From the IMG/VR virus record IMGVR_UViG_3300037247_000864, positions 1 to 46,265 of that record: 46,265 bases of DNA. One strand, 5' to 3'. The stretch's first letter is position 1. Each line of letters opens with the position of its first letter. This DNA is from a virus. A program made the position numbers and the translations under genes. The notes under the pieces were generated by a model. That model had not been told where the DNA came from. It made no database searches and saw nothing but the letters and a program-made list of their open reading frames with translations. Positions 11,466-41,289 of the stretch are shown here, piece after piece.

Positions 11466-11669
11466 GTGAGAATCTTCCTCTCCGGTCTCGCCTTCGGCGC
11501 CTGTGCAGTCACGCTCTGGGCCGTGCTGACGAAGCCGAAGCGGCTCCCCTGGATTGGCAAGGAGATGGTGTTGGATGGCCGCACTGTGACCGTGACAGAC
11601 TACGACCCCACTACCCAGACATGGACGTTCGACAGGGATCTGGCGCCTAGGATTCACGCTGATGGCTGA
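11466..11669 (+). CDS. Small membrane-anchored protein
   Basis: The gene encodes 67 residues from a GTG at 11466. One N-terminal hydrophobic helix (FLSGLAFGACAVTLWAVL) is followed by a basic turn and a soluble, strand-rich tail (MVLDGRTVTVTDYDPTTQTWTF). It overlaps the start of the large terminase by eight bases. Its role is unknown. It could be a signal-anchored periplasmic protein. Confidence 0.6.
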   Translation: MRIFLSGLAFGACAVTLWAVLTKPKRLPWIGKEMVLDGRTVTVTDYDPTTQTWTFDRDLAPRIHADG

Positions 11670-13236
11670 CCTAACTCAGACACCGGACCTGATTGAAGAG
11701 GCCCTTCCGCTCCTCGAGCGTGAGCGGGCGTCTCGTAGCTTCATCGCCTTCCTGGGCCATGTCTGGATTCTGGAGCCACCCCAGGCCGGCGCCCCCACGG
11801 GCGGACGGATTAAGTTCCAGCTCTGGCCTCACCTCGTTGAGGGCGCTGAACAGCTCGAACGCCCCTGGAAGATGACTGCCGAAGGTCGTCAAAGCGAAAT
11901 TAGACCCGAAGACCTCCAGACCGTCATAGGTAAGTCCCGTCAGGTTGGCTGGTCTTGGCTTGTCGCCGCCTTTGTAGCCTGGCTATCTATGTTCCATGAC
12001 GGCGCCCTCTCTTTGATGGAGTCCGAGGGCCAGAAACAAGCTGCGGAGCTGATGAGGAAGGCTCGATACGTTTACGAGAACTTGCCCGAGCCGTGGCAAC
12101 TTCCCCTCGACGCTCAAAGTACTGAACACCTCTCATTCAAAGGGTCTGACTCCGAAATCCACGCTCTGCCCAGCACGCAGAAGGCTGGGCATGGCTTCAC
12201 CGCCACCATCGCAATCATGGATGAAGCTGACAACCATGAATATCTCGCGGAGGGGATGGCAGCGATTAAACCGACAACCGACGCGGGCGGCCAAGTTGTG
12301 GTGCTCAGCACCGTAGAGAAGCGTAAAGCCTCGTCGATGTTCCAGTCCATCTACCGGCAGGCCATGGCTGGTAAGGGCGGCTGGACCAAACTCTTCGTGG
12401 GTGTCTTCGCCCGCCCTGGTCGGGATGAAGAGTGGTACGAACGCACGAAGGACTCCATCCCTCCCGAAGAACTGAAAGGGATGTCGCCCCAGCTCTACAT
12501 GGAGCAGAACTACCCCAGAACCGAAGAGGAGATGCTGGCCCCACCCAAAGTGGAAGCGTTCTTCGACATCGATGTCATCAGTCAGTACCTTATGACGCTG
12601 TGCCGAGAGCCCATGCTGGCCGAGGGGCCGCTCAACATCTATGAGAAGTTTCTGCTCGGCCACAAGTACGTCGCGGGCACGGACACGTCGGAGGGCGTGG
12701 GTCGGGACTACTCCGTCACGGCAGTGCTGGACTTGACGACCATGCACGTTGTGGCCGATATTATGTCTAAGGAGATTGCGTCTGACGATCTCGTGTACTG
12801 GTCGATGAAGCTGCTGGAGATGTACCGCTGGCCCCTCTGGGCGATTGAAAATATCGGATACGGGCGTGACACGGCGCGGAAGGCGCGGGATCTGCGGTAC
12901 AGGCGGCTGTTCAGGATGCACACGAAGCGCATACTGGGCGGAGTGGACCATCAGCGAGAGGAGCCTGGCTGGCACACCGATGGGGTCAACCGATGGGACA
13001 TCTGGAACGACATGAAGCCCCAGGTGGACAAGGGCGCCCTGGTCGTGTTCAACCGAGTGGGACTCCAGCAATTTCTGGACGTGATTAAAACCGGCAAAGA
13101 TTCTAGGCCCGAAGCGCGGGTTGGGGCCAACGACGACTACCCCATGGCGGTCGGGATCGCACTCCAGATGCGCAAGTGGGCCGGCTCCGCGATGGGCGCT
13201 GATGACAAGGTGGTCGTCCGCCCGCTGAGTTTCTGA
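11662..13236 (+). CDS. terL: Terminase large subunit
   Basis: The gene encodes 524 residues, a normal length for this motor. The ATPase has a deviant Walker A, GKSRQVGWSW (residues 90-99), and Walker B with catalytic Glu in AIMDEAD (184-190). A VVVLSTV motif III-like stretch follows near residue 212. The nuclease half shows AGTDTSEGVGRDYS (Asp341 and Asp349), AIEN (Glu396) and a C-terminal NDDYPMAVGIAL helix, matching the RNase H-like nuclease of terminases. It cuts and pumps DNA into the procapsid through the portal. Confidence 0.95.
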   Translation: MADLTQTPDLIEEALPLLERERASRSFIAFLGHVWILEPPQAGAPTGGRIKFQLWPHLVEGAEQLERPWKMTAEGRQSEIRPEDLQTVIGKSRQVGWSWLVAAFVAWLSMFHDGALSLMESEGQKQAAELMRKARYVYENLPEPWQLPLDAQSTEHLSFKGSDSEIHALPSTQKAGHGFTATIAIMDEADNHEYLAEGMAAIKPTTDAGGQVVVLSTVEKRKASSMFQSIYRQAMAGKGGWTKLFVGVFARPGRDEEWYERTKDSIPPEELKGMSPQLYMEQNYPRTEEEMLAPPKVEAFFDIDVISQYLMTLCREPMLAEGPLNIYEKFLLGHKYVAGTDTSEGVGRDYSVTAVLDLTTMHVVADIMSKEIASDDLVYWSMKLLEMYRWPLWAIENIGYGRDTARKARDLRYRRLFRMHTKRILGGVDHQREEPGWHTDGVNRWDIWNDMKPQVDKGALVVFNRVGLQQFLDVIKTGKDSRPEARVGANDDYPMAVGIALQMRKWAGSAMGADDKVVVRPLSF

Positions 13237-18117: not shown

Positions 18118-21100
18118 ATGGTTGGTCCGCCAGATTTCTCGGATGAAATCCTGGACCTTATTCGGGGCGGCCGGCCCTTGCCACCGCCAGATACTGGGGC
18201 GGCACCTGTGTCGGCGCCGACGGCATTGGCACAGAGGCCCCCTTCAGAAGACTTCCCGCTATTTCAAGCTGAGGGCGAGGGCGGCATCCTCCCTGGCCCT
18301 GGCCAGTTTCCTCGTTTTGCCGCCCCGCCTGAAGCCGACCCTGAGATCGCTGCGTTTAACCAGGAGATGCGCCGCATCCTGGCACTTCAGCAGCAGTTCG
18401 CGGAGACCTCCCCCGATTTTGTTGGTGAGCGCATCCTTGATCCCCTAACGCGATTTCAGCGCACAGGCGCTGGGGCATTGCTCCAGGCTGGTGCCCGCAC
18501 TCCTGGTGTAGGCCGTATCTCAGGACTCAGCGAGTTTGAGGAAAACGTCGCGGCCTTCAGAGCGCAGGGTGCTGGGCGACTGGAATCCCTGAGACTTGCT
18601 AGAGAACAGGCCGAACGGCAGACCGAGCAGTTTCCCTCAGCCACATTGCCACTGTCGAAGATACCTTTGCCTGGCGACAGGGCTCTTCCTGATATCCAGG
18701 CTGGCGTGCTCGGTGCTGCGGATATCTTTGCGGACCCGACGCTACTGGTGCCAGGGATAGGAATAACCGGAACTGTGGCCAGAAAGGGAGTCACGGTTTC
18801 GGGCAAGCAGATAGTTAAGGAATTGATGCGTGATGCAGCGCGTACTGCTCGGGTAGCGGCTGCGCCGGAGTTCCCGCGGGGCGCTGTGGGCGCCCTAGCC
18901 CGAGAGGCCGTCGAGGAGGTCCCTGAAGTTGCTGCTAGGGCTGCGCCTGCCGTGCGTGAGGCGGTCGAGACCGTTCCGCCCGCCGTAGTGACCGAGCCCG
19001 CAGCGGCGGAACAACTCGCGCTCGGCGCTCCCGCAGAACGACTCGCTCTTGCCGCGCCGGAAACGCCCACGCCGACCACGGCGGTAGAGCGCGCAAAGGC
19101 CGCAATACCACTGCCAGGGGAAACGGCGCCTCCCCCCGCCCCGATTGGCCGGCAGGCCTTACCCCAACCGTCAACGCCCAGTGCGCCCTCAACTCCGGCG
19201 GGGTTGATGGCGCCTGCGGACGCAGAGGAGACGGTGAAGTGGTTCGGGGCCCTACTCGCAGATCCCGACACGGCACGGGCGATGGAGTTGACCCAGGAAC
19301 TACGCACCCACGCACTGGGGCGCCGCTTCGCGGCCTTCCAGTCTCGTGCCAAACAGCTTGTTGATGAGGGGGTTCCGGCAGAGGACGCCTTGAAGCAAGC
19401 CCGACAGGAGCTTTCGGGCGAACTGCCCCGCATCCGAACTGGCGTCGAGTCGGTCATAACGGAAGAGGTTCGCAACGCTCTGTTCTCGCGCGTCTACACC
19501 GTGTTGGCCAACGATGTGCCGGAGCAGCTTGCGACCGCGACCGCACTCACCAACGCCCTGCTGGGTAAGCCCATACCGCGCGTGCCTGGCATTGCGGGCC
19601 AATCTGCGTTCAGCCGCCTCTCACGCATCTTCCCGCCTGAGATCATGGACGTGTTGGGGAAGAAGCAGACACTTGACGAGCTCCTTCTGAGCAAGTTCCC
19701 ACGCCCTCGCGGAGTTGCTGGTGTGGACATCCCGCCCAGTGTTCCGTTCGGTCAGGCTCGGTTGGGCGAAGAGGCCATTCCTCTAAGGCAGTTGCCGCCA
19801 GACCTACGTTCTGCGACGCAGCGAGACCTGGAATTGCTGGACTTCCGCGCCTCCTTGGCGGGCAGGGCACGAGGGGTATCTGAGGCAGCGGACTTTGCGC
19901 CCGCGGGCGCCCTGGACGCACCCCAGCAAGGCCGCCTACTGACCGAGCCCTTTGAACAAAGGCGGCTACCGCTTGATCCACGGACCAGGGCTGCGAAGCG
20001 GCTTGACCTCGAGACATTTGAGACAGGCCTCGCAGAGCCGCCCCCAACTGCCGCAGGCGGGCGCCGTCCGCCCCTTGGCCCGATTGATGAGGTCGTCATT
20101 GGCCAGCTTCGGCAGCAGCCACCCGGCTTCATGGAGCGCCTTTTGGCGGCTGCGAGGGTCGCGGGGATGCAGGGCGTGGATGCGGCCAACCTAGTGAGAT
20201 CCAACGTGGCCTCATTCGACCTCTCATACCTGCGGCAGCAAGCCTTGCTCATCCCAGGCAACCCAATAAAGTTTGGGCAGTCCTTCTACGACAGCCTGCG
20301 TTCCGTCTGGAGCGCGAAGTACGCCGAAGACATCATGCAGGCGATTCACAACGACCCTCTCTTTGCCATCTACGATAGGATCGGCGCGGACTTCCTGAGA
20401 CCCCTTTCAGGCAAGGTCGCGGGCCAGTGGGAGGCTGCTGAGGACTTTATGATATTGTCCCGCGTGGCGGGCGAGACGCGCCCACGGCCGTTTCAGTGGA
20501 TAGCGGAGAACCTCCCCTGGATTCGCATTTCAGCTCGTGCCCACGTCATCGGCACGAACAGCATGAACTGGCGTATCTTCAAGAGCTACTACAAAGAACT
20601 GCTCAACATGAATGAGCAGATCGCGGCCGGCTCCATGAAGGCTCCTAAGAACTGGAGCATTGAGGGATCGCTGAAGTCGTCGTCGTCAATGCTGGCGGAT
20701 ATGTCAGGCAGGGGGCCGTTGGGTCCGTTAAAGGCCATATCTCCGGCCCTAAATGGCTTCTTCTTCTCCATGAGGCTCAATATCGGCAGGCTCATAGCGC
20801 CACGTCACCTGTTCTCCGCAGATCCATTTACCCGTCGCAAAGCGTGGAAGAACTTCGCCACCGCCATCGGGACGTATAGCTCGTTCATCCTGGCGGGCGA
20901 GCAGATGGGCTTGTGGAACGTGGAAAGCGACCCGCGTAGCGCTGACTTTATGAAGATCATCCTTGCGGGTCGTGTCAGAGTGGACATCTGGGGCGGGATG
21001 CAGCAGTACGTCGTGCTCTATGGGCGCCTGCTCTCCGTTATAGGGACAGGAGAACTTGAGCCTCGACTGAAGTCTACCGAGACGGGGCAGGTGAGTGAGG

Positions 21101-28831: not shown

Positions 28832-30073
28832 ATGCCTTTCTTCTCGCCTGGGACGCCCGAGGTTGACTACTCAGACAACCACCACATTGACGCCTTTGGG
28901 CGACTGCGTGTCTCGGAGCCCGTAAACCTCTGGACATCCACATTCCAGCACAACCTGCACCCCCTGTTCTTCAATGAGACCACGGCAAACAATGGTTCAG
29001 TCACCCATCTGCCGAACGAGTCCGCAGCTGCACTGGCAGTCGCTACAGACAATGGCTCTAAGGCCATCTTGCAGACCTTTGAGTACTTCCAATACCAGCC
29101 TGGTAAGTCTCATACCATAGCGATGACATTTGTGGCCGACTCGCAGCAGGCCAACACGGACGTGCGAATCGGCTACTTCGATGACGACAACGGTATCTTC
29201 CTGGAGCTTACAGGAGCCTCGACCATCAACCTGGTGCGGCGAACCAAGACCTCCGGTTCGGTGGTGAACAACAAGGTGGCCCAGGCCAGTTGGAACATTG
29301 ATCCGTTCGACGGCACGGGGCCATCAGGGGTGACGATAGACCTGACCCTGGGCCAAATCCTCTGGATAGACCTGCAGTGGCTCTCCCTGGGGCGTATCAG
29401 GGTGGGGTTCGACATTGATGGTGTCCTTTTCTACGCCCACCAGTTTCTTGTTGCTAACGTTCTTACTGTCCCGTCGCTCACAACGGGCAACCTGCCCGTG
29501 CGCTGGGAGATAGTCAATACCGGCGTGGCGTCCGCAACCAAGACGCTCACCGCTATTTGCTCAACGGTGTTTTCTGAGGGCGGGGCCAGCTTTGAGTTAG
29601 GACACGCCTTTGCAGGTGGCAACGGCGCTACCTTCAGAACAGGTATTGGGACCACTGCTATCCCGATCTTCTCACTACGGCCTGCAACCACGTTCAATAG
29701 CATTACCAATCGGATCAAGGTAAGACTCTCCAACTTGGATATTTTTGCCGATGACAGCATGCTGTGGCAGATTATCTACAAGCCGACCAGCATTACTGAC
29801 GCCACCTTTGCAGTTGGTCCTGTCGCTCACTCGTCTGTAGAGGTAGATATTGCAGGCACGGCCATAGTGGGCGGCATTATAGCCGCCAGCGGTTATATTG
29901 CTGCAAGCAATAAGGGCGGTCTGGCTTCAGCAGTGGATCTAGGATCGAAGTATCCCTTCTTTTTAGATGCTGCCGGCACGGGTCAGGGAAACAGTTTCTC
30001 AGTGACCGTCCAGACTCTGGGTGGGACAAACAAGCAGGCGGCAGGGACGGCCAACTGGACTGAAATACGATGA
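28832..30073 (+). CDS. Virion structural protein with DAFGRLRVSEP motif
   Basis: The gene encodes 413 residues. The motif HHIDAFGRLRVSEPVNLW near residue 17 is widespread in tailed-phage virion proteins of unknown exact role. The rest is beta-rich: ITNRIKVRLSNLDIFADD, SSVEVDIAGTAIVGGIIA. It begins MPFFSPGTP, like its neighbours. It overlaps the next gene by four bases. Confidence 0.65.
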   Translation: MPFFSPGTPEVDYSDNHHIDAFGRLRVSEPVNLWTSTFQHNLHPLFFNETTANNGSVTHLPNESAAALAVATDNGSKAILQTFEYFQYQPGKSHTIAMTFVADSQQANTDVRIGYFDDDNGIFLELTGASTINLVRRTKTSGSVVNNKVAQASWNIDPFDGTGPSGVTIDLTLGQILWIDLQWLSLGRIRVGFDIDGVLFYAHQFLVANVLTVPSLTTGNLPVRWEIVNTGVASATKTLTAICSTVFSEGGASFELGHAFAGGNGATFRTGIGTTAIPIFSLRPATTFNSITNRIKVRLSNLDIFADDSMLWQIIYKPTSITDATFAVGPVAHSSVEVDIAGTAIVGGIIAASGYIAASNKGGLASAVDLGSKYPFFLDAAGTGQGNSFSVTVQTLGGTNKQAAGTANWTEIR

Positions 30074-36922: not shown

Positions 36923-38371
36923 TTAAAGCTCTATCGCCTCAATGGCCTGCACCAAAGCCCCCTCACCCTCCTGAAGCAAGGCCATCAGGTCAAATGCCTT
37001 GTCGCTGAAGCCAGCGAGGGCGTAGATGTTAGGTTCAGGGAACATAAGCGTGCCGTAGCCCTGGAGGTCGAACGAGAAGACCGTGGGCCGCACCCCGAAC
37101 CTCTCGCGATACTCGTTGAACGCCATCGTCGGCGCCCCACCTGGCGAATATACTCGGTCGCTCATCCAGCCCTGCATGTCGGACAGAATGACGATGGTGT
37201 CGTAGGCGGCCTTGGCCCGGGTGAAGACCGAGTTGAAGTTGGTGCCAGACATCGCCGCGTTGTTGGCCAGCTCTCTCTGGATGGACAACAGGCTGTCGTC
37301 CTGATTGAGCGCCACGTATCGGGCGTCATCGGAGAACACTAGGACATCCGCACCGTTCCTCTTGAACAAGGCGGCCGCAAAAAGGCTTCCTATATCTATG
37401 GGCTGGCCCCGCATGGAGCCCGAACCGTCAAGGGCGACCAGAATGCGCCCCTTGAGTTCAGGCACATTGGCAAGAGCAATCTCCGCAGCCCTGTTGAGAG
37501 CCTGCACGACCTCTGAAGCGCCATGCTTGAGCTGGTCGCGAGCGGTGATGAACCGGAAGGGCAACAGTTTCGAGCCCCTGATGCGCTTCTCGTCCACAAG
37601 TTGCTCGCACACGGCCGGCAGGATGTTAGGAGCCTGGTCGATGATGTTGCGGAGGTTACGCACGAGGGCCATGTAGCCTAGCTTCCCAGAGTTGATGAGG
37701 TCGGCCCAGACTGAGGCCTTCAACTCTGCCTTGTGCTCTTCAGTCTCCGCCTCTTGCCCAGCCTGAGACAGCATGGCCTCCCAGGTCTGTTCCTCCCGCA
37801 GGGTGCCGTTCATCAGCGCCTCAAGGGCCTCACGGTTCCGCTCAACAGGCGTTGGGTGGACGAGGTTCACCACGTCCCGCAGCTTCACCTGGTGTCCCGC
37901 GCCCTGGTATCGCGCAAGCTGGTATCGATCGAACTTGCCGAAGGCATCGGCTAGCCCGCGCTTGAGCGCATTGGGCAATGGACGCTTCCCATGGGCCTGG
38001 TGGTAGTAGGCGACAATCTCGGTCATGTCGTCGGGGCGCTGCACGACCTTCGCAATAAAAGGGCGCATCCAGCGCGTACCCTTGTGGCCCGCCACCAACT
38101 CTACCGCCACCACATGGCTGACCGAACGCATGTAGAAGGCCGTGCGGGCATGGTAGGCCGCCTTGGCCGCAAAGGTGGGCGAGACATCCCCCACAGCTCC
38201 GACAAGCCCACTGAGGGCATCTGAGCCGGAGCGATAGTGTTGGTCTTTGAGGAAGTTGGTGAGCAGCAACGTAACTAGCCGCAGCTCTGGGCTCTGGTCG
38301 TAGGCTGCGCCGCCCGCAAGGTTCTTCGCAGGCGCACGGGGATGGTCGATGGCAACGTTAAACCTGGGCAC
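36923..38371 (-). CDS. rsr: Ro60/Rsr RNA-binding protein (TROVE + vWA)
   Basis: The gene encodes 482 residues from a GTG at 38371 with GAGGTG upstream. Residues 15-300 are the TROVE ring of helical repeats, with diagnostic blocks KLRDVVNLVHPTP (163-175) and GKLGYMALVRNLRNI (229-243). Residues 308-482 form a von Willebrand A domain with an intact metal site: DGSGS (315-319), T377 and D398. Ro60 binds Y RNAs and misfolded RNAs and, with PNPase, takes part in RNA decay. It usually lies near its Y RNA gene. Here a candidate sits directly upstream. The gene is at the end of the long early operon. The family call is secure; the benefit to the phage is unknown. Confidence 0.92.
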   Translation of the reverse strand: MPRFNVAIDHPRAPAKNLAGGAAYDQSPELRLVTLLLTNFLKDQHYRSGSDALSGLVGAVGDVSPTFAAKAAYHARTAFYMRSVSHVVAVELVAGHKGTRWMRPFIAKVVQRPDDMTEIVAYYHQAHGKRPLPNALKRGLADAFGKFDRYQLARYQGAGHQVKLRDVVNLVHPTPVERNREALEALMNGTLREEQTWEAMLSQAGQEAETEEHKAELKASVWADLINSGKLGYMALVRNLRNIIDQAPNILPAVCEQLVDEKRIRGSKLLPFRFITARDQLKHGASEVVQALNRAAEIALANVPELKGRILVALDGSGSMRGQPIDIGSLFAAALFKRNGADVLVFSDDARYVALNQDDSLLSIQRELANNAAMSGTNFNSVFTRAKAAYDTIVILSDMQGWMSDRVYSPGGAPTMAFNEYRERFGVRPTVFSFDLQGYGTLMFPEPNIYALAGFSDKAFDLMALLQEGEGALVQAIEAIEL

Positions 38372-38383
38372 AAGTCACCTCAC

Positions 38384-38486
38384 AAAAAGGGGAAAGAAAA
38401 AGGCGGAGAATGCTGGCGAAGGGTGTATGAGTCCGGTTTCCCGGGCTTTCGTTTCAAGCGAAGTAACCCTCAGCCTCACTGCCGCC
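38384..38486 (-). ncRNA. Candidate Y RNA upstream of the Ro60 gene
   Basis: Predicted RNA starts at 38486. Number its bases from 1. GGCGG (1-5) pairs with CCGCC (81-85). AGUG (7-10) pairs with CAUU (75-78). GGCUGAGGGU (12-21) pairs with ACCCUUCGCC (63-72) except for one mismatch. The result is an imperfect stem of about 20 bases with a bulge and two small internal loops. The distal loop holds two hairpins: CUUCG/CGAAAG with a seven-base loop, and CCGG-GAAA-CCGG with a GNRA tetraloop. UUUUUCUUUCCCCUUUUU follows the last pair as terminator. Stem formed by the two ends, bulge, distal module and position next to Ro60 all fit bacterial Y RNA. I could not align a canonical Ro60-binding or tRNA-like motif, so the name is inference. 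Confidence 0.6.
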
Positions 38487-38492
38487 AATCGT

Positions 38493-38522
38493 ATTTTACA
38501 CGACGGCGGGACTATGCGTCAA
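38493..38522 (-). promoter_or_regulatory. Promoter of the candidate Y RNA
   Basis: On the minus strand TTGACG (38522-38517) is followed after 18 bases by TAAAAT (38498-38493). Each matches the sigma70 consensus at five of six positions. Seven bases further is a G at 38486, the first base of the predicted stem. The -35 overlaps the stop codon of the upstream 74-residue gene. A dedicated promoter inside the operon means the RNA can be made independently of the early transcript. Confidence 0.6.
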
Positions 38523-38743
38523 GTCATGGGAGCCTCCGCCGTAGGGCGCTCGATGTTGGCCTGCTCTAGGGCATCTTTGAGTTCACTAGGTTCGGGATCC
38601 CAGGTTTCGAGCCAGTGGTATGTGCCCCATAGGGCCTTGGCTAGCTGGGCGTCGGCGACCTCCGAGACCGCTCCCTGTTTCGCAACAAACGCCTCCGTGC
38701 GCTCCTCATATGTCAGCCGCAGCCCGTCGATGTCCAAACCCAT
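38519..38743 (-). CDS. Hypothetical small protein upstream of the Y RNA promoter
   Basis: The gene encodes 74 residues, acidic and helical (YEERTEAFVAKQGAVSEVADAQLAKALWGTYHWLETW), with GGAGG seven bases upstream. No family recognised. Its stop codon is shared with the -35 box of the candidate small RNA promoter. Confidence 0.65.
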   Translation of the reverse strand: MGLDIDGLRLTYEERTEAFVAKQGAVSEVADAQLAKALWGTYHWLETWDPEPSELKDALEQANIERPTAEAPMT

Positions 38744-38784: not shown

Positions 38785-39201
38785 TTAGGCAGTGCCGGTG
38801 TCCCTGCCAATGTCCATCTCCTCGACCACGATCTCAACCCGCGACTCACCCTTCGGCGCCTTGACCCAGGCGTGCTCGCCGTAGGTGACATGCTCGGGAT
38901 CATCATCGCTGACCACATTGGTGTCGATCAGCCCATCGACCCAATTCTTCATCATTAGAGGGTATGCGTCGAGGTCTATCTTCCGATAATGGTAGACGGT
39001 GTAGGTTAGCTTGATGCGCCCCACCCCCGGCCAGGTGCCGAGCTCGGCCTTCCCATGCTCGTAGCCCGAGGCGCGCATCAGCTTCTTCTTCTTGGTCTTG
39101 ATGATGTGCCCGATCCTGCTGTGCGGCTCATGGTTGGGCGCGAGTTCTCGTGGCGGTATGAATCCGAGCTCGATGGTGATCTTGCGGGCCTGCGACGTCA
39201 T
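38785..39201 (-). CDS. rusA: RusA-like Holliday junction resolvase
   Basis: The gene encodes 138 residues. The pattern KIDLDAYPLMMKNWVDGLID...VVSDDD has Asp76, Asp78, Lys85, Asp89 and Asp99/100 at the spacing of RusA catalytic residues (D-x-D ... K ... D-x-L ... DD). A basic patch (KTKKKKLMR) before it would bind DNA. RusA cleaves four-way junctions during phage recombination and prepares branched DNA for packaging. It complements the annealing-type gene in the other part of the early arm. Confidence 0.78.
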   Translation of the reverse strand: MTSQARKITIELGFIPPRELAPNHEPHSRIGHIIKTKKKKLMRASGYEHGKAELGTWPGVGRIKLTYTVYHYRKIDLDAYPLMMKNWVDGLIDTNVVSDDDPEHVTYGEHAWVKAPKGESRVEIVVEEMDIGRDTGTA

Positions 39202-39582: not shown

Positions 39583-40092
39583 TCACGAGAACCTTTGTCG
39601 CTCAGTCGTCTTGGGAAGGTAGAGCGGGTGTTTCGGGTACCCGCCTTTGGTCAGCCCAAGGTGATAGACCCGCCCTGGTGCTATCCTCGTCAGCATCCCC
39701 AGAACTTTAGCACCTCGCTCATGAAGGGCGCCATGAACCCCCCAGGCTACGATAAATTGGTCTGCCTCCCATAACGCCTTAACAATGTACTCGTCATTCT
39801 GCGGACCGACAGGGTCGGGGTGAGAGTACAGTTCCTTGGGGTCAGTGGCCGCAAGGCCGAAGGCGTTCACCACTCGGAGCCACCGAAATCCCCACCCCCG
39901 AGCGAATCCAATAGTGCGTGTCACGGTGGGGTCATTGTCGTTCTCGTTCGCGGTGGAGCCATTCAGCATCCCGAAAGCGACCATGCCCTCTCCGAGCGCG
40001 TTAACCTCTCGCGTTAGCTCGTAGCGGTATACACGGTCAGGACTGAAAACGGCTCCCACTCTCATCCTCGTTTCTCGCTGCACTAGCAGCAT
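39583..40092 (-). CDS. DUF1643 family protein
   Basis: The gene encodes 169 residues from the ATG at 40092. Conserved features of DUF1643 are present: FGMLNGSTANENDNDPTVTRTIGFARGWG, VNAFGLAATDPKELYSHPDPVGPQND, AWGVHG and LGLTKGGYPKHPLYL. The fold is related to uracil-DNA-glycosylase-like proteins, and the function is unknown. It lies next to a DNA base-modification gene. A link to modified DNA is therefore possible. Confidence 0.8.
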   Translation of the reverse strand: MLLVQRETRMRVGAVFSPDRVYRYELTREVNALGEGMVAFGMLNGSTANENDNDPTVTRTIGFARGWGFRWLRVVNAFGLAATDPKELYSHPDPVGPQNDEYIVKALWEADQFIVAWGVHGALHERGAKVLGMLTRIAPGRVYHLGLTKGGYPKHPLYLPKTTERQRFS

Positions 40093-40153
40093 CGCTCGCA
40101 CCCCGCATGGCGCTGCATGAGCCAGCAGTGCAGGTGCTTCACGCCCATGTGAG

Positions 40154-40885
40154 TCACACGAACAGGCTTCCCTGGGCTGGCATCCCCGTGAGTTGCGCTA
40201 CATACTGGTGCGCCTCTCGCGGGTCGTTGGCATTCCGCCCCTCTCTACGGGCTGCGAGCGACCATGCCATCGAATCGCAGGAATACAGCAGCTCATTGAC
40301 CAGGTGGTTCTCTAAGGCAGTCCGCTTCAGCCCGAATCCGTGCAGCCGAAGGTCGGGGCGCACCTCTGCGATGGCCGATAGTAATGCCTCCACCTGACGT
40401 GGCGTGCCATTGCGCTTGCAGACGGAACCGACACCGACCCAGGCGCCCTCTTCGAGGTCATCGCCGTAGTCTGCGATGTGCGTCTGGTACTCCCGTGGCG
40501 TGTAGCCCTGAAGGACCGGCATGATGTACGTAGTGCCGCCGCAGCTGCGCAGCAGGCGATATCGCTGGGTGGTCAACCGCTGATGTTCAGCCACTGTTGA
40601 CCCCGTAATGCCAAGGATAAACGGCTCGCACATATAGTCCTGACTGACCGCAGCCACCAGATTACCGCATCGAGCCCATCGTTGAATCTGCCGCGCATAC
40701 TCCTGGACCTCCATGTGACCAACACCACGAGCGATGCGGGTGAACGCACCTGAATCTAAAATCCATTTCTGCGGATCGAAGTCACTCTTGCGATGTTCCA
40801 ATCTATTTACGGACACCATGCTGCGCTCGAACTGCGACGCGTCCGGCGGCTGGTGAAGGCCGACGTAGAAGATGGGCTGCTTCAT
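40154..40885 (-). CDS. dpdA: DpdA-like DNA deazaguanine transglycosylase
   Basis: The gene encodes 243 residues from the ATG at 40885, overlapping the upstream stop as ATGA. ILDSGAF (44-49 region) holds the probable catalytic Asp. QDY, MPVLQGYTPREY, GVGS, LHGFGLK and CDSMAW follow in the order found in phage DpdA-type tRNA-guanine-transglycosylase relatives. These replace guanine in DNA with a 7-deazaguanine derivative such as preQ0, blocking restriction enzymes. No preQ0 synthesis genes (FolE, QueD, QueE, QueC) are seen in the window, so the precursor would come from the host. The upstream zinc gene may be a partner. Confidence 0.72.
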   Translation of the reverse strand: MKQPIFYVGLHQPPDASQFERSMVSVNRLEHRKSDFDPQKWILDSGAFTRIARGVGHMEVQEYARQIQRWARCGNLVAAVSQDYMCEPFILGITGSTVAEHQRLTTQRYRLLRSCGGTTYIMPVLQGYTPREYQTHIADYGDDLEEGAWVGVGSVCKRNGTPRQVEALLSAIAEVRPDLRLHGFGLKRTALENHLVNELLYSCDSMAWSLAARREGRNANDPREAHQYVAQLTGMPAQGSLFV

Positions 40886-41289
40886 TCCCATATCAGCTCA
40901 CCGAGATTGATGAAAATCCTGTGCTGATTTTCACAGATGTAGGCCTCCCAGTTAATCCGTACCATTCGATACGCCAGCTTTGTCCGACTCATCCGCCCTT
41001 CGCATTCTGGGAATGGGCAGCCTAGGTCGAAGCGTGCGTCAGAACGCTTGCTCTTTGGATTCAGCAGCATCCCTCTGACTCGAGTCCTCTTGAAGGCCTC
41101 ATTAGGGCCGTAGTAATCGAAGATGTTGGCCGCCCCAACATGGGGTATACGCCGCTCAGGGGGCATGTCGACGTCAAGGTGGAACCCGCACCTAAAACAC
41201 TGCCAATATGGGCCGTACTGGTCGCGCTGCTTGGCCAGCGGCCCATTACAGCGGGGGCAGGCGTGGAGACGGAGCGCGGTGGTGGTCAT
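40882..41289 (-). CDS. Zinc-ribbon protein upstream of the DpdA-like gene
   Basis: The gene encodes 135 residues from the ATG at 41289, with GAGG upstream. Two ribbons are visible: CPRC and CFRC near the N-terminus (residues 10-32), then CPFPEC and a later C-E-N-Q-H group. The middle is basic (KRTRVRGMLLNPKSKRSDARF). It overlaps the DpdA-like gene by four bases. A DNA- or protein-binding adaptor for it is conceivable. Confidence 0.65.
   Translation of the reverse strand: MTTTALRLHACPRCNGPLAKQRDQYGPYWQCFRCGFHLDVDMPPERRIPHVGAANIFDYYGPNEAFKRTRVRGMLLNPKSKRSDARFDLGCPFPECEGRMSRTKLAYRMVRINWEAYICENQHRIFINLGELIWE

Follow-up and report, generated by a model that had tools for sequence, protein, structure and literature searches.

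A phage gene for a Ro60-type protein preceded by a probable Y RNA gene of a covarying, Ro-linked RNA family

The sequence analyzed here, referred to as the window, is a single virus record of 46,265 bases, which is identified as phage DNA by a terminase large subunit gene (11662-13236) and a gene for a virion structural protein (28832-30073). Searches via structural proteins gave no near relatives of this phage or distant ones only (35-44% identity), and a scan of the whole 46-kb window found no tRNA genes. One region holds a gene for a Ro60-type protein and, just upstream on the same strand, a probable Y RNA gene. The features of this region are the following, with (-) marking the minus strand.

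36923-38371 (-): Ro60/Rsr-like protein with TROVE ring and vWA domain, 482 amino acids, GTG start, MIDAS intact
38381-38375 (-): putative ribosome-binding site GAGGTGA of the Ro60 gene, from the sequence
38384-38401 (-): T-rich tract TTTTTCTTTCCCCTTTTT, perhaps a terminator or a 3' tail
38401-38487 (-): predicted Y RNA stem-and-module region, match to covariance model R1 (43.1 bits, E 3.1e-9)
38402-38406 (-): 3' arm of the lower stem, CCGCC, from the R1 alignment and the fold
38427-38458 (-): variable distal module of two small hairpins, from the fold
38459-38465 (-): signature UACUUCG, immediately after the upper stem
38466-38475 (-): 5' arm of the upper stem, GGCUGAGGGU, pairing with ACCCUUCGCC at 38424-38415 (9 of 10 pairs)
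38481 (-): bulged C between the lower stem and an A-U/G-C step
38482-38486 (-): 5' arm of the lower stem, GGCGG, pairing with CCGCC at 38406-38402
38522-38493 (-): predicted sigma-70-type promoter TTGACG-N18-TAAAAT
38519-38743: upstream open reading frame, its stop codon overlapped by the -35 hexamer of the Y RNA promoter
38785-39201 (-): RusA-like resolvase
39583-40101 (-): DUF1643 protein
40154-40891 (-): DpdA/tRNA-ribosyltransferase-like protein

We additionally observed that the DpdA-like gene at 40154-40891 (-), of a type linked to 7-deazaguanine insertion into DNA, has the RusA and DUF1643 genes close by.

A Ro60-type protein is encoded in full at 36923-38371 (-), in agreement with an earlier note on this DNA that had described a complete TROVE plus vWA protein. 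Its TROVE domain (PF05731) scores 98.6 bits against a Pfam cut-off of 23, while the vWA domain is diverged and reaches 20.7 bits in the Pfam vWA_Ro60 family, under the cut-off of 27.7. The five positions of the MIDAS motif DxSxS...T...D (D315, S317, S319, T377 and D398) are invariant across 32 aligned sequences, and the protein falls into PHROG 850 'RNA-binding protein' with an E value of 2.5e-49. An AlphaFold2 model (pLDDT 85.9, pTM 0.81) predicted a Ro60 fold: the top 13 Foldseek matches were all Ro60/TROVE structures (E 7e-17 to 2e-12), including Thermus phage phiLo Ro60, vertebrate Ro60 with misfolded RNA, and Deinococcus radiodurans Rsr. The NCBIfam cut-off for Rsr equivalogs was not reached (25.8 versus 900 bits). 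Judged by its sequence, the protein is a distant branch and not a canonical Rsr equivalog.

H187, the histidine of animal Ro60 that is essential for Y RNA contact (PMC4030889), is not kept in the window protein, where L164 aligns with this vertebrate residue. According to our alignment, D. radiodurans Rsr likewise has no equivalent of H187. The Deinococcus protein works with Y RNA and, since it also lacks this histidine, H187 is not diagnostic for the bacterial branch. In a phage collection of 50,697 records, 95 matched the window protein, every one at less than 60% identity and the nearest, LR745206, at 50%. Ro60 homologues are thus uncommon in phages, as had been stated before, but they are known and form an established phage family.

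The predicted promoter upstream of the RNA agrees with the consensus at 10 of 12 positions, and 0.2 such sites are expected by chance in the searched stretch. The transcript start predicted from it, G38486, is the base with which the lower stem begins. Above the bulged C38481, A38480 pairs with U38407 and G38479 with C38408. The distal module folds into the hairpins GCUU-GAAACGA-AAGC, whose 5' base is G38459, and CCGG-GAAA-CCGG (38444-38433); no tRNA-like T or D arm was found in it. The window RNA has a predicted folding energy of -34.2 kcal/mol (z -2.8, with a range of about -2.0 to -2.8 over runs), which is only moderately unusual, and folding alone is insufficient to settle the reality of the RNA. 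The near-consensus promoter, the RNA start at the first stem base and the two distal hairpins had all been described in the earlier note and were recovered here. Its U-rich terminator holds in part: the T-rich tract at 38401-38384 is present, whereas no canonical intrinsic terminator was found between the RNA and the Ro gene. The match to the Rfam YrlA or Y RNA models considered there was not obtained, as gathering and permissive Rfam scans of the window and of the RNA returned spurious lncRNA matches only and no YrlA. The YrlA model rests mostly on a tRNA-like module, and it likely misses the window RNA because the latter shares the Ro-docking architecture while the tRNA-like module is absent.

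In order to compare the RNA across relatives, we started from the Ro proteins. A single-sequence protein search of viral contigs gave no relatives, and an alignment of the two nearest Ro proteins yielded 74 relatives in viral contigs and 6 in bacterial genome contigs. The motif G[AT]UACUUC[GA] occurred 130 times in the 51 kb upstream of the Ro genes compared to 22 times in the remaining 451 kb; on the opposite strand of the same loci it was found 9 times in all. It lay within 700 nt of the Ro gene in 61 of 73 loci, and reading outward from the motif revealed a matching 3' arm for most copies. The covariance model R1 was built from 39 short RNA copies located before the relatives' Ro genes, with the window excluded. 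Its stems covary strongly, as shown by 157 cells in which both sides had changed, compared to 54 +/- 5.5 after shuffling, and by a covariation score of 0.656 compared to 0.195 for shuffled alignments and at most 0.268 when the partner was slid, a control that preserves relatedness. Covariation in relatives, named beforehand in the earlier note as a point on which the RNA would stand or fall, is therefore present. A previous covariation count that took the 3' arm from the lower stem only (6.16 versus 4.70 +/- 0.11 pairs of 10) was noisy in register and has been superseded by the covariance model.

Applied to the 46-kb window, R1 gave one match only, at 38401-38487 (-), with 14 of the 15 model pairs formed. 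At E <= 0.01 it gave 97 matches, a number that includes the 39 training copies. The matches are spread over 62 of the 80 Ro loci, with 95 located upstream of Ro and on the Ro strand. All four clostridial Ro loci, which had been picked by protein alone, were matched. Among 201 Chloroflexota genomes, the single R1 match stands in front of that genome's Ro gene, and five bacterial genomes reached via their Ro locus had four matches in three genomes, all beside Ro, and two genomes without a match. No significant match was seen at the phiLo and Vibrio phage loci, and none on the contigs of the distant structural-protein relatives (35-44% identity). The independent model, the strong covariation and the near-perfect positional linkage bear out the earlier proposal of a phage Ro60 gene paired with a Y RNA gene. 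We regard it as very likely that the locus is a phage-encoded paired Ro60-Y RNA cassette, a statement that concerns the pairing only and excludes its biological effect.

The conserved order of elements is a lower stem, a bulged pyrimidine, two pairs, an asymmetric loop, an upper stem of ~10 bp, UACUUC, a module, and the 3' arms. The bulged pyrimidine is present in 38 of the 39 relatives' copies. It is followed by an A-U or G-C pair and then by a G-C-type pair that is formed in 39/39 copies. UACUUC is likewise found in all 39, an invariance that is partly by construction because this hexamer was the search seed for the copies. A bulged cytosine is a known feature by which Y RNAs bind Ro60 and is retained in bacteria (PMC4030889), and we infer that the bulge of the phage copies is equivalent to C9 of animal Y RNAs. 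The window RNA almost certainly belongs to the Y class.

The distal module varies among copies. Many first copies have none and carry a loop of 12-21 nt instead; the window and locus L085 have two hairpins; permuted tRNA mimics are found in L007, L016, L019, L030, L042, L079 and other relatives, and the longer copies described below carry a large module. L085, from an Anaerolineaceae metagenome-assembled genome, follows the same two-hairpin plan as the window; it has a TTGACA...TAAACT promoter of its own and, upstream of Ro, a terminator-like site. Across copies, a -10-like hexamer just upstream of the Y RNA is mildly enriched only (18/64 versus 12%). Phage Y RNAs might be an exchangeable-module platform, in which one Ro-docking stem bears varied modules and the Ro60 ring is aimed at different targets, although we consider this possible rather than probable. 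The modules would then be absent, or consist of two hairpins, permuted tRNA mimics or a structured module that may reach a few hundred nucleotides, and a phage could carry several Y RNAs, even scattered in tRNA arrays. The two-hairpin module of the window would then address a partner that is neither PNPase nor a tRNA-binding enzyme.

Several further loci are worth recording. A larger second Y RNA candidate (210-320 nt, 27 listed) lies downstream of a short first Y RNA and upstream of the Ro gene, for example at L003 2626-2908, L010 2693-2916, L013 2701-2916 and L018 2685-2935, with ~23 similar loci. It combines the same Ro stem with a large conserved module, AGCGACAGCAAAGCUACC...GGUGAAAAAGUCCG...UAUCGGCAAAGUUUCGGGAGAAUUCUUUGUAACG; an assignment of this module to RNase P or another known RNA was rejected, as there was no meaningful Rfam match. 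Six tandem Y RNA signatures, each with a different distal module, precede one Ro gene at L042 2230-2960. In Bacillus phage G, at least three unannotated Y RNA candidates (L118 1203-1705) are located before the TROVE gene gp540. In the archaeal virus HGTV-1 (L005), a UACUUC motif with a pairable 3' arm lies 82 nt upstream of the TROVE gene 129, and R1 gave no match in the gap before this gene. The 635-kb phage LR745206.1 has Y RNA genes within tRNA arrays at 342959-343028, 369033-369172 and 388895-389000 (L120-L122); these array copies are 100-150 kb from the Ro gene, and one has a permuted tRNA module. In Xanthomonas phage 10KY502B, an annotated tRNA-Thr (L007 1711-1778, corresponding to OQ622092.1 20624-20691) coincides with part of a Y RNA copy. 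It probably is no true tRNA, because it overlaps a YrlA-model match (20634-20738 of OQ622092.1) within the tRNA-mimic module of that copy.

Equipped with both a Ro60 gene and, immediately upstream, the gene for a docking RNA, the phage very probably supplies the cell it infects with an RNA-handling particle of phage origin. From its own promoter, a short Y RNA would be transcribed just upstream of the TROVE-vWA gene, on the same strand, and by analogy with known pairs it is likely bound by the window Ro60. As in known Ro60/Rsr systems, its stem would dock on the outer face of the TROVE ring, thereby gating the cavity for RNAs that are structured or misfolded; the distal module would contact a partner that it recruits or blocks. 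The Deinococcus Y RNA tethers Rsr to PNPase and thereby forms a degradation machine for structured RNA (PMC7790460; PMC8394870). The earlier note had suggested that the particle could divert host RNA decay or shield phage RNA, which stays a conjecture. The most likely net effect would be phage control, in the course of infection, over how structured RNA is degraded or quality-checked; for such a role in decay or quality control we see about an even chance, and it is proposed by analogy only.

Alternatively, the Y RNA could act mainly as an inhibitor or decoy, either by occluding the cavity of Ro or by titrating a host factor for RNA processing, a reading that rivals the tether mechanism only and leaves the identity of the cassette untouched. 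The very short module of the window would suit such a role, and in D. radiodurans Y RNA sequesters Rsr in 23S maturation (PMC4030889). The role shown experimentally in Deinococcus is, however, that of a tether (PMC7790460), and we hold a predominantly inhibitory Y RNA to be rather unlikely.

The structure could also be a cis-acting leader, with Ro60 binding its own 5' untranslated region and regulating itself, and no free small RNA being made. Ro proteins bind structured RNA, and in the window the RNA ends ~30 nt before the GTG start with no canonical terminator in between, so that part of the RNA may belong to the leader of the Ro mRNA. The wider set of loci argues for a free RNA instead: of 78 loci, 34 have an intrinsic-terminator-like site in the 170 nt preceding Ro, in most cases downstream of the final Y RNA, and many loci contain two to five tandem copies. 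In addition, phage Atuin has one copy downstream of Ro (L006 3464-3534), and LR745206 has three confident copies and one weak copy at least 100 kb from Ro, of which three were read and all lie in tRNA arrays. These observations make an exclusively cis-acting leader improbable. A chance hairpin behind a promoter-like sequence, for which the moderately unusual fold (z about -2.0 to -2.8) would leave room, is refuted by the independent R1 match (E 3.1e-9) with its exact signature and paired arms and by the clade-wide covariation, and its probability is negligible. The preferred reading thus remains a free Y RNA paired with the phage Ro60.

Ro60-Y RNA pairs are already known from other phages and bacteria. 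No annotated record that we examined, from Bacillus phage G and from Streptomyces, Caulobacter, Gordonia, Xanthomonas and crAss-like phages, labels this RNA as a Y RNA, and part of one copy is annotated as a tRNA in one Xanthomonas phage. The present analysis contributes a covariance model of broad reach and a view of module diversity, although this breadth may already be described in the primary literature. With a specific model for the Ro-docking stem, phage Ro60 particles can be searched for and put to direct test.

Among known systems, the Listeria phage CKA15/A511 has been described as a lytic phage with a putative Ro RNP and very highly expressed RNAs nearby (PMC12282133). A511 gp57, which we took as the equivalent of CKA15_055 by position and size, is a DUF2828/DUF7788 protein and not a TROVE protein, and R1 gave no significant match beside it. 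We therefore rejected A511 as expression evidence for the R1 family. Three tandem stem-forming repeats with CAGCAAUUACUA or a close variant precede gp57 in A511 (L123 25300-25570, (-)); perhaps they form a comparable set of RNAs serving a TROVE-like protein. Mycobacteriophages, too, are reported to encode Y RNAs (Chen et al. 2014, as cited in PMC12282133).

The closest solved structure is that of another phage TROVE-vWA protein, Ro60 of Thermus phage phiLo (PDB 9L5Y, 9KOP), which matched the window protein with a phmmer E value of 1e-21, held Foldseek ranks 1-2 and is about 22% identical; the phiLo locus differs in that no R1-family RNA was found there. The Rsr-Y RNA-PNPase system of D. radiodurans similarly joins a TROVE-vWA protein (Foldseek match 2NVO) to a Y RNA, but the phage protein has diverged to 18% identity in the structural alignment.

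With YrlA (Rfam RF02553), the phage RNA shares the location beside a Ro gene and a basal stem interrupted by an asymmetric loop, in which the YrlA consensus AUGCU stands against eight 3' nucleotides while the phage copies have six against eight. The 'UAC' right after the upper stem is also common to the YrlA consensus and R1. The window copy differs in that it lacks a tRNA-like module with T, acceptor and D arms, and neither YrlA nor tRNA matches were obtained for it. In contrast, L019, L030, L042, L079 and other relatives carry a permuted tRNA module on an R1-type stem.
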